NCBI GenBank assembly: GCA_016208975.1
Contig: JACQXA010000004.1
Span: forward strand, 1,303,015 to 1,367,014
Direction of reading: 5' to 3'
Length of the DNA stretch: 64,000 nt
Source of the DNA: Nitrospinota bacterium
GTDB lineage: Bacteria > Nitrospinota_A > UBA7883 > JACRLM01
Shown here: in pieces, positions 18,688-21,645 of the stretch
Numbering within the stretch: the stretch's first letter is position 1
Layout: the number at the start of each line of letters is the position of its first letter
Made by a program: the position numbers and the translations under genes
The notes under the pieces: generated by a model
Told to the model about the DNA's origin: nothing
Databases searched by the model: none
Seen by the model: the letters and a program-made list of their open reading frames with translations, nothing else

Positions 18688-19032
18688 ATGGGCAACGGAA
18701 AATATCAAGGCGACCAGTTTTTGGATTGGCGCAGTGAGATGTTCGGCCGGGAGTCCGCCGCCCGCAGGATACTGGGGGTGGACGAAGGGGCGGGGATAAC
18801 CGAAATCCGCCGCGCATACCGCCAGCTGGCGTTTAAACACCATCCGGACAGGAATCCGCAAGACCCCTCCGCCCACCGCCGTTTCGCCAACATGACCAAC
18901 GCCTACATAGTTCTGGCCAAGGGACGCCCCATGGACATTGCGGACGATAACGGTTTATTGCCCCGGAAAGCGGACCCGTTACAGACCAGAAACGGTTACA
19001 TGGAGTGGTGGCGCAGGAAGTTCGGGTTTTAA
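18688..19032 (+). CDS. J-domain (DnaJ-like) protein
   Basis: 114 aa. J domain covers about residues 24-75: AARRILGVDEGAGITEIRRAYRQLAFKHHPDRNP is split here as helix II EIRRAYRQLAFKH followed by the invariant HPD tripeptide. No G/F region, zinc fingers or C-terminal substrate domain, so it is a type III co-chaperone that would only stimulate a DnaK-type ATPase. C-terminus NGYMEWWRRKFGF is aromatic and basic and may contact a client or membrane. Downstream of the zinc-ribbon gene. Confidence 0.85.
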   Translation: MGNGKYQGDQFLDWRSEMFGRESAARRILGVDEGAGITEIRRAYRQLAFKHHPDRNPQDPSAHRRFANMTNAYIVLAKGRPMDIADDNGLLPRKADPLQTRNGYMEWWRRKFGF

Positions 19033-19244: not shown

Positions 19245-21329
19245 ATGTTCGAGAAAATCAAGGTTGGCGGGTTTCTTTCCAAATATCCCAAAGCGGAGGG
19301 GCCGGAAAGAAAAGGCCTCATCGAAAAACTGGACGCGCTGTGGGAATTCGCCATTCCCATGGCCGCCGACGAGTTGCGCTACAACCGCATGCTCTACATG
19401 GACGCCGCCGAGATTTTCGAGAAGCTTTATAAAAAAGAACGGCTTCCGGTTTACATCAAAGGGCTTGGCGACTCCAAAGACAACGTGCGCGCCCTGTATA
19501 AAGAGACCCTAAAGAAGCAGGGGAAAGCCTCTATATTGCCCAACCTGGCGGACAGCCTGGCCAGCGACGACAATGTTTTGCGCAGGACAGCCGGGGAAAT
19601 GATAGTTGAAATAGGCGACGCTTCGGTGACCTATAAAATTATTCCCCTGCTCAAAAGCGAGAACCGCGACGTAAAGAAAACCGCCATGGACACCCTGGCG
19701 TCCCTCAAATCCGAAAAAGCCTCGGAAGCCATCTTGCCCTTGATGGACGATCCGGACTCCTGGGTGAGGCGCAAGGCGGTGGAGGCGGTGTGCAGGCTTA
19801 AAGACAAGGCCACCCTCGCAAAGCTCCGGCATGTGGCGTTGAACGAAAAAGACGCGGCCATCCTGAAAATGGTCATAGAAACGGTAGGGGAGATTGGCGG
19901 CAAAGAGGACGCCGTGGCCATTCTCGGGCTCATTAGAAACCCGGACATGATGATAAGGCAGATGGCCGCCGGAGCCGTTATAGCGATCGCCGATTCGGAG
20001 ATCGTGCCCAAAGTGGTGGAGCTTCTCATGGATGAGGACGTGAACACACGCAGGACCGCCGTGGATGTTCTCAACGGGCTTAAAGACCCGAAAACCGCCG
20101 GGGCGCTGGTGCGCGCCATAAAAGATGGGGACTGGTGGGTGCGGGAGATAGCCACCGACGCTTTATCCGCCCTTGGAGGCGAGAAGATAAGCCAGATGAT
20201 AATGGGTTTGCTCACCGACCAGGACGAGTACGCCCGGAGGTCCGCGGTGGAGTTTTATTGCCGGGTGAAAGATCCGGCGGCATTTCAAATACTCTTAAAC
20301 CTTCTGGCCGATAAAGACTGGTGGGTGCGCGAAAAAGCCATAACCGCCCTGGGGCTGATAGGCGACCCTGCGGCCATTCCCCACATCGAAAAGCTGGTGG
20401 GGGACAAAGAGGTGAAATGGGCCATACCCTCCGCGCTGGCCGCCATCGGGGGAGCCGCCGCGCTAAAACCGTTGGGCCTGATGCTCAAAGACAGCCAGCG
20501 GGCCATAAGGCTGGAAGCGCTCCGCGCCGTGACGCTGATAGATTCGGACGAGACGGTGGGCCTGCTAAAACGGGCCGCGTTGGACCAGGACGTTGAAGTG
20601 ATGGCCTCGGCCCTGAAACTCCTGCGGGAAAAAACAGGGCAGGTGTGGCTGAAAGAGGACGTTGAGGCGGAACTGGGCAAGGAAGAGAAGGCCCCCGTAA
20701 CCAAAGCCGCCCCTCAAACCGTTACGCCCATAATAAACAGGGTGGATGTGAAACCTGGCGAGATATTCACGGAGGCCATCCTGGTGGCGGACCTTTGCAA
20801 TTCCACAGACATGGCCAACACCTATGGCGACAATTTCGTTTTCCAGCTGGCGTCGGAGTTCTGCAACATAATCCTCGCCGCCGCCGAGGACGAGAAAGTC
20901 AGTTTCTCCAAAAGTACCGGTGACGGATACCTGATGACTTTCCCTTCGGTGGAAAACGCGCTGGGAACCGCCAAGCGGACTCTGGACGAGTTGGCGGCGC
21001 GCAACGCCGCCGTGGAGCCCAAACGCAGGATAGCGTCCCGGTTCGCAGTGAACATCGGGGAATGCCGCGTGGACATGAACGGCGACAGGCAAGGGGTGGC
21101 GGTGAACATGACCTTCCGTGTGGACGGGGTGAAAAGGGACACCATGATCCCGGCGCCGGGGGGAGTGGGCGCGGACGAAATGCCCATGGAAAACAGGATA
21201 TTGCTCACGGAGCCGGCCAGCCTGGACATCAAGGGTAACGCCAGGTTCCCCACCCGGCTGTTGGGCTTTTTCGAGTTGAAAGGGATAACCGGCCTGCACC
21301 GGATATATCAGCTGATGGAGGGCGGATAA
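19245..21329 (+). CDS. HEAT-repeat protein fused to class III nucleotidyl cyclase
   Basis: 694 aa, no membrane segment. About residues 40-470 are consecutive HEAT/PBS-lyase-type repeats with recurring D-x-x-x-x-VR-R-x-A units such as DPDSWVRRKAVEAV and DKDWWVREKAITAL. After a linker, residues about 505-690 form a class III cyclase domain. Visible catalytic set: metal Asp516 (LVADLCNST), Lys556 and Asp560 (KSTGDGY), and Asn621/Arg625 (VNMTFR). The residue three before the Asn, often the purine-choosing Asp, is Val, so cAMP versus cGMP is open. It is followed by a strong terminator. Likely a cytosolic protein-sensing cyclase; the partner is unknown. Confidence 0.8.
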   Translation: MFEKIKVGGFLSKYPKAEGPERKGLIEKLDALWEFAIPMAADELRYNRMLYMDAAEIFEKLYKKERLPVYIKGLGDSKDNVRALYKETLKKQGKASILPNLADSLASDDNVLRRTAGEMIVEIGDASVTYKIIPLLKSENRDVKKTAMDTLASLKSEKASEAILPLMDDPDSWVRRKAVEAVCRLKDKATLAKLRHVALNEKDAAILKMVIETVGEIGGKEDAVAILGLIRNPDMMIRQMAAGAVIAIADSEIVPKVVELLMDEDVNTRRTAVDVLNGLKDPKTAGALVRAIKDGDWWVREIATDALSALGGEKISQMIMGLLTDQDEYARRSAVEFYCRVKDPAAFQILLNLLADKDWWVREKAITALGLIGDPAAIPHIEKLVGDKEVKWAIPSALAAIGGAAALKPLGLMLKDSQRAIRLEALRAVTLIDSDETVGLLKRAALDQDVEVMASALKLLREKTGQVWLKEDVEAELGKEEKAPVTKAAPQTVTPIINRVDVKPGEIFTEAILVADLCNSTDMANTYGDNFVFQLASEFCNIILAAAEDEKVSFSKSTGDGYLMTFPSVENALGTAKRTLDELAARNAAVEPKRRIASRFAVNIGECRVDMNGDRQGVAVNMTFRVDGVKRDTMIPAPGGVGADEMPMENRILLTEPASLDIKGNARFPTRLLGFFELKGITGLHRIYQLMEGG

Positions 21330-21409: not shown

Positions 21410-21443
21410 CCGCCGGTAACTGGATACCGGCGGTTTGGTTTTT
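21410..21443 (+). terminator. rho-independent terminator of HEAT-cyclase gene
   Basis: Perfect 9-bp stem CCGCCGGTA / TACCGGCGG with a 6-nt loop, followed by TTTGGTTTTT on the plus strand. It lies 80 bp past the cyclase stop; the T-run touches the convergent csp stop codon. Confidence 0.75.
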
Positions 21444-21645
21444 ACAGCTTCATTACGTTCTTGGCGTGCAGACCCTTAGGGCCTTCAAATATTTCGAATT
21501 GCACCGGCTGGCCGTCTTGAAGGGTTTTATAACCCTCGCCGGAAATGGCGGTGTAATGGACGAAAACGTCCCCATCCCGCTCTTCTTCTTTTATGAAGCC
21601 ATACCCCTTAGCGTTGTTGAACCATTTGACCTTCCCCGTAGCCAT
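21442..21645 (-). CDS. cold-shock protein (CspA family)
   Basis: 67 aa, a single cold-shock domain. RNP1 is KGYGFI and RNP2 is VFVHYTAI; starts [10 protein letters not shown]. Single-stranded nucleic-acid chaperone acting on mRNA structure. GAGGGGGAG lies about 6 nt before the ATG. Transcription appears to start about 265-270 nt upstream (promoter at 21920-21948), so the mRNA has a long leader like those of cold-regulated csp genes. Paralogues elsewhere cannot be excluded, so no letter suffix is given. Confidence 0.95.

Follow-up and report, generated by a model that had tools for sequence, protein, structure and literature searches.

The window, a 64,000-nucleotide stretch of a Nitrospinota bacterium genome (GCA_016208975.1, contig JACQXA010000004.1), encodes a protein in which a solenoid of HEAT repeats is joined to a C-terminal class III nucleotidyl cyclase domain, and to judge from the sequences this HEAT-cyclase and the cNMP-binding (CNB) protein encoded adjacently in most of its relatives look like a little-known signalling pair. 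The reading that we favour, and hold to be reasonably probable, is a soluble class III purine cyclase, probably adenylyl, that is controlled by the HEAT solenoid through a partner docking on a conserved patch, with the cAMP read by a single-domain CNB protein. Of more interest than the argument over the product of the fusion are the HEAT patch, which is invariant, and the receptor encoded beside the cyclase in most relatives.

Architecture, fold and active site

A sequence-only reading had proposed a HEAT-type array fused to a class III cyclase, and this stands, as the protein is a single 694-aa frame (Table 1), both folds are predicted and the fusion is kept across three phyla. The HEAT repeats were confirmed by Pfam (HEAT_2, E 4.3e-67, eight stretches) and AlphaFold2, although they extend over ~480 residues and not the ~430 first given. 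The full-length AlphaFold2 model, from an alignment of 33 sequences, had a mean pLDDT of 91.4, mostly >90 in the solenoid, where 30 helices spanning residues 2-479 make about 15 repeats; pLDDT is <50 at residues 481-494, an alpha/beta domain begins at about 505, and the relative orientation of the domains is uncertain (full-length pTM 0.58). Using Foldseek, the solenoid matched PP2A PR65 and artificial alphaRep HEAT proteins, and the matches listed for the fold search with the full-length model were all solenoid proteins. Tandem DNA repeats were looked for and none were found.

Table 1. Coordinates of the HEAT-cyclase gene, its parts and related features (window positions unless a locus or genome is named)
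Feature	Coordinates	Strand	Basis or remark
HEAT-cyclase CDS, 694 aa, single ORF	19245..21329	+	ATG start aligns with MFE start of orthologues
HEAT solenoid, residues 1-480, ~15 helical-hairpin repeats	19245..20684	+	Pfam HEAT_2, AlphaFold2, Foldseek
Conserved patch, residues 261-372: DVNxRR / DxDWWVR / DxxxxRR / DxDWWVR	20025..20360	+	Alignment of 35 sequences
Variable linker, residues 481-504 (481-494 disordered)	20685..20756	+	Top-residue frequency, pLDDT
Predicted class III nucleotidyl cyclase domain, residues 505-694; Me1 D516, K556, Me2 D560, D614, N621, R625	20757..21326	+	Alignment and fold match
17-residue insert, residues 633-649, between Asn/Arg helix and strand NRILLTE	21141..21191	+	Subfamily alignment
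114-aa protein with DnaJ domain, upstream of cyclase	18688-19032	+	Domain scan
Convergent cold-shock-like gene	21442..21645	-	tblastn
CNB protein closest to linked receptors, 154 aa	G000:C4:1815282-1815740; L089 1405-1866	-	E 8e-50
Stand-alone HEAT solenoids with Trp-Trp patch	L144 3287-4729; L145 3743-5146 (-); L146 3299-4717

As a single sequence the window C-domain gave no Pfam cyclase match even at E<=10, yet PF00211 matched 14 of the 39 relatives' domains scanned (best 1.7e-7, the window protein not among them) and the model aligns to Ma1120 and Rv1900c, so on its predicted structure the domain is a true class III cyclase, though a divergent one. The profile search of residues 505-694 that the sequence-only reading had suggested did match class III cyclases, namely 3mr7 (E 4.3e-5) and Ma1120 4wp9 (E 0.012) using phmmer against cyclase structures, and LipJ in NCBIfam (9.9e-6). 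Modelled alone as a monomer from 39 sequences, the catalytic domain had a pLDDT of 95.5 and a pTM of 0.91, and its ferredoxin-like catalytic fold aligned with Ma1120 5d0e (Z 23.4, rmsd 1.6 over 164 residues) and Rv1900c 1ybu (Z 22.6); it is therefore predicted to lie within the cyclase fold, and not outside it as it would if the original proposal were wrong. These mycobacterial adenylyl cyclases, Ma1120 and Rv1900c/LipJ, are the nearest solved catalytic folds and have the same catalytic residues, but their N-termini differ from that of the HEAT-cyclase, and a LipJ-like row in our alignment (L074) is without the insert at residues 633-649.

In a full-length alignment of the window protein and 34 relatives (35 rows, L050 being excluded because it is cut), D516, K556, D560, D614 and R625 are each present in 35/35, and N621 in 31/35 with Ser in L040, L047, L048 and L067, all Desulfobacterota-type. 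Asp516, Asp560, Lys556, Asn621 and Arg625 are located where the initial reading had placed them, and the metal residues are not lost in orthologues. However, its claim that Val replaces the purine-selecting Asp was wrong: Val618 is the N-3 position and not the purine-selecting site, while Asp614 of GDRQGVAVN, at N-7, is matched in the phmmer alignment with the GDIFGDAVN Asp of 3mr7, as in solved cyclases, and this register together with the invariance of D614 rules out Val at the selecting position. According to the excerpt of PMC7384201 used here, ATP is selected by Lys and Asp (or Thr) and GTP by Glu and Cys or Ser. The window protein has the ATP-type Lys/Asp pair (K556, D614), both residues being invariant, and the suggestion of a product other than cAMP therefore finds no support in the purine site. 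Because Asp614 is kept with Asp516, Lys556, Asp560 and Arg625, the expected product is very probably cAMP.

The HEAT patch and the cyclase family

Across the 35 sequences, mean top-residue frequency is 0.49 for residues 1-104, 0.53 for 105-260, 0.70 for 261-372 and 0.52 for 373-480, compared with 0.17 in the linker and 0.68 in the cyclase domain. The four HEAT repeats at 261-372 are conserved as strongly as the catalytic domain, with 20 of 112 positions invariant, and their motifs, which follow one another in successive repeats, include two invariant Trp-Trp pairs (W297/W298 and W359/W360). In a HEAT paralogue from the same genome (L002), single Trp residues stand at such positions and no pair is present. 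Stand-alone solenoids of 468-481 aa that keep the patch and have no cyclase occur in three genomes (G003, G007 and G009), so by its sequence the solenoid is a module. A CNB-looking frame was also seen near the stand-alone solenoid of L145.

The patch is most simply taken as the place where one conserved partner docks, and a protein-binding input via these repeats is plausible because they are conserved like the catalytic domain. As described in the excerpt of PMC11514114, the bacterial HEAT protein Cpc7 of Myxococcus xanthus binds a signalling protein, the single-domain response regulator CheY7; that system as described has no cyclase, unlike the window protein. The disorder of the linker speaks against transmission through a rigid helix.

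A genome scan with the single window cyclase domain as query gave no match, whereas an alignment query (A1) found 51 loci in the genome contigs, 35 of which (L034-L068) are HEAT-cyclases, 34 of full length and one cut (L050), with 12 from the window's class or Nitrospinota, 14 from Nitrospirota and nine of Desulfobacterota-type, as assigned by record title and by matches to the class's genomes. The survey across genomes that the sequence-only reading had called for thus recovered a real family, present in 14 of the 23 genomes of the window's class (the G002 copy being truncated by contig ends) and in two further phyla, Nitrospirota (8/198 genomes) and Desulfobacterota. With wider sampling, 22 of 385 relatives matched at 1e-25 and only two lay outside the window's class, of which L138 is a TPR-cyclase and L139 an FHA-cyclase; in the phylum of G073, 3/247 matched, one of them having a frame of HEAT length. 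The family is patchily distributed and mostly environmental. A literature search that covered open-licence PMC papers turned up no account of a HEAT-cyclase.

The remaining 16 loci (L069-L084) are not HEAT-cyclases and include generic cyclases, a cut locus (L073), FHA-cyclases (L069 and L071) and cyclases with a membrane-like N-terminus (L070 and L072). In the window's class, 11 loci (L018-L023 and L029-L033) encode TPR solenoids fused to a cyclase of this subfamily, and these form one clade (support 99/92). These TPR-cyclases are sometimes in tandem, two on one contig. An insert of 17-18 residues (window residues 633-649), present in 10 subfamily rows and absent from eight generic class III rows, is common to HEAT, TPR, FHA and membrane members, so a single cyclase subfamily has acquired several input modules, two of them solenoids. 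The tree leaves HEAT and FHA or membrane members unseparated as clades (support 67/41), with the HEAT row L065 apart. The view that a HEAT input is unusual needs tempering, given these TPR solenoids and a Xanthomonas TPR-cyclase that also has a receptor (excerpt of PMC3770947).

The linked CNB gene and genomic context

A CNB gene adjoining the solenoid-cyclase fusion on the same strand was found in 27 of the 35 relatives (24 by neighbour clustering, with profiles of both CNB types giving the final number) and is absent at the window locus. There are two arrangements: a downstream gene of ~155 aa in 15/35, with gaps mostly under 45 bases (one of 207, some overlapping or touching), and an upstream gene of ~130 aa in 12/35, with gaps of about 140-590 that are upper bounds, being measured to the first ATG. 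By group, the linked gene is present in 6/11 of the window's class, 13/14 Nitrospirota, 8/9 Desulfobacterota-type and 0/1 for L065. The loci without it are the window, L034, L035, L036, L050, L063, L057, L058 and L065 (L050 and L065 being short contigs), and the window's order has it at 0/5 loci. Longer frames matching the receptor profile in L052, L053, L058 (where the frame is convergent) and L066 resemble kinases, and the one scanned comprises Pkinase and cNMP_binding. In the window's class, receptor-group genes occur in 12/12 tested carriers vs 2/7 tested non-carriers (Fisher p 0.002, kinship uncorrected; 19 genomes given, omitting G006, G008, G011, G017 and G022). As it counts loci as independent, the estimate of linkage by chance is a guide only, and the two separate gene arrangements are a firmer argument for linkage than the Fisher estimate.

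The linked CNB protein matched Pfam cNMP_binding at 1.7e-22, and the linked proteins, of about 128-162 aa, are of single-domain size with no room for a TIR domain. In a receptor alignment that left out the near-copies L041 and L048 and the upstream type, G86, E87, R96, S97 and A98 are invariant (14/14), in line, for G86, E87 and R96, with the Gly-Glu and Arg of CNB domains named for ribose and phosphate in the excerpt of PMC11224242. Opposite CRP Ser128, a register inferred from alignment end coordinates, there is Ser or Thr in 7/13 linked receptors, Gln in five and Asn in one, the Gln being that of linked receptors of the window's class.

The window genome encodes 10 frames with 12 cNMP-binding stretches between them, and six PF00211 cyclases besides the HEAT-cyclase, so crosstalk among its cyclases and CNB proteins is possible. 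The CNB protein closest to the linked receptors (E 8e-50 against the downstream profile, the next best in this genome being 2e-23) is encoded 0.49 Mb from the HEAT-cyclase, inside a purine-synthesis operon whose order (purC-like, purS-like, CNB, purQ-like; pur genes named by eye) recurs in other genomes of the class. This protein has Ser or Thr opposite CRP Ser128. That it serves the HEAT-cyclase in the window's organism is a guess, because the cyclase has no adjoining receptor and the CNB of the pur operon is a separate paralogue that occurs in G020 too, a genome without a HEAT-cyclase. The cold-shock-like neighbour matched in the window, L034, L035, L036, L050 and L063 and in none of the other 30 loci; its conservation is thus confined to the window's order, which lacks the linked receptor gene, and it was rejected as a cyclase partner on that ground. 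Likewise, no link to the HEAT-cyclase emerged for the DnaJ-domain protein or a pseudouridine-synthase-like gene.

Type II/IV secretion ATPase genes (PilT/PilB type) flank 6/35 loci (L037, L050, L053, L060, L065 and L066), and one lies beside the FHA-cyclase L139, with none in L069-L084 or L138 (flanks unequal in length). In several loci the cyclase is accompanied by a cluster of kinase, PP2C and FHA genes, and this context hints at surface motility or phospho-signalling as output, but at no more than that. Kinase, PP2C, FHA and PilT-type genes were seen near the HEAT-cyclase in L053 (4724-10321), L060, L066 and L044 (367-4438), one kinase having its own CNB domain; L044 contains a CHASE2-kinase. 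A magnetochrome domain over cut-off was found in 8/8 Nitrospirota carriers (G067, G075, G076, G078, G081, G144, G165 and G181) vs 3/190 non-carriers among 198 genomes. However, the window's class has it in 1/14 carriers vs 2/9 non-carriers and the window's genome has none, so magnetotaxis was rejected as the function and shared ancestry is the likelier explanation for the co-occurrence in Nitrospirota.

Proposed mechanism and known systems

In the mechanism that we favour, a protein partner would dock on the Trp-Trp/Arg-Arg surface that is invariant in repeats 261-372, and the solenoid would gate catalysis by bringing two cyclase domains together or covering them; with so short, disordered and unconserved a linker, it would not act by pushing through a rigid coiled coil. 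The product, probably cAMP, would then be read by the single-domain cNMP-binding protein encoded adjacently in most relatives. More tentatively, and with rather less confidence, the HEAT surface may sense a specific protein, such as a CheY-like receiver or a type IV pilus ATPase, and switch the purine cyclase, whose signal a one-domain receptor reads, making a compact cAMP relay common to Nitrospinota, magnetotactic Nitrospirota and Desulfobacterota, with the same sensor also acting in trans as a stand-alone protein.

The solenoid could instead be a mere scaffold or localisation arm, for example to pili or the cell pole, attached to a constitutive enzyme that it does not regulate, and the flexible, unconserved linker, the stand-alone paralogues and the pilus-type ATPase genes are consistent with this. 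However, the fusion and patch are kept over three phyla and class III cyclase input domains usually regulate, and we regard an unregulated enzyme as unlikely. That the protein is a catalytically dead relative used for binding is most improbable: PF00211 misses the window domain and N621 is Ser in four relatives, but all the catalytic residues are present in the window protein and five of the six are invariant in 35/35.

The product might also be cGMP, from the same machine working as a guanylyl or mixed cyclase. The closest characterised architecture, XC_0250 of Xanthomonas campestris, is a TPR-class III guanylyl cyclase with a linked cNMP-binding GGDEF effector, XC_0249 (excerpt of PMC3770947), and the Gln opposite CRP Ser128 in the window's class points the same way, but guanylyl cyclases have Glu and Cys/Ser (excerpt of PMC7384201) where K556 and D614 are invariant here, and Ser/Thr occupies the receptor position in 7/13 linked receptors and the pur-operon CNB, making cGMP a doubtful product. 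The two systems share an alpha-solenoid N-terminus on a class III cyclase and an adjacent cNMP-binding gene; they differ in that the window family has HEAT and not TPR repeats, an ATP-type Lys/Asp pair and a place in other phyla, and its linked receptors are a bare CNB domain whereas XC_0249 carries GGDEF (as described in the excerpt of PMC3770947). By analogy, the HEAT-cyclase and its receptor would work like XC_0250/XC_0249 but are not the same family. The two-gene layout is also that of the Pycsar anti-phage systems, in which PycC and a CNB protein (PycTIR or PycTM) stand side by side, and PADLOC gave weak matches to PycC (0.00097, cyclase domain) and PycTIR (9.3e-15, linked CNB). However, Pycsar has pyrimidine products and a toxic effector domain on its receptor (excerpt of PMC11224242), whereas here the purine pair is intact, the PycTIR match covers the CNB domain only, and the 27 linked CNB genes are of single-domain size and so not fused to a TIR or TM toxin. 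The conserved neighbourhoods with FHA/PP2C/kinase and pilus genes likewise argue against an anti-phage system, which we consider very unlikely.

For the HEAT-controlled purine cyclase that we favour, Pseudomonas aeruginosa CyaB-Vfr is a further comparison, as a class III cyclase and CNB receptor tied to type IV pili, cAMP and twitching, although CyaB is a membrane sensor and Vfr, its receptor, a transcription factor. Of the bacterial cyclase inputs that have been studied, most respond to small ligands, light or lipids. Here the residues of the patch and the adjoining receptor genes make this cyclase's input approachable by pull-down, and a solenoid that reads a protein through a defined, invariant surface, beside its likely receptor, would give a testable path leading from a protein event to cAMP in phyla whose cyclic-nucleotide biology is almost unknown.
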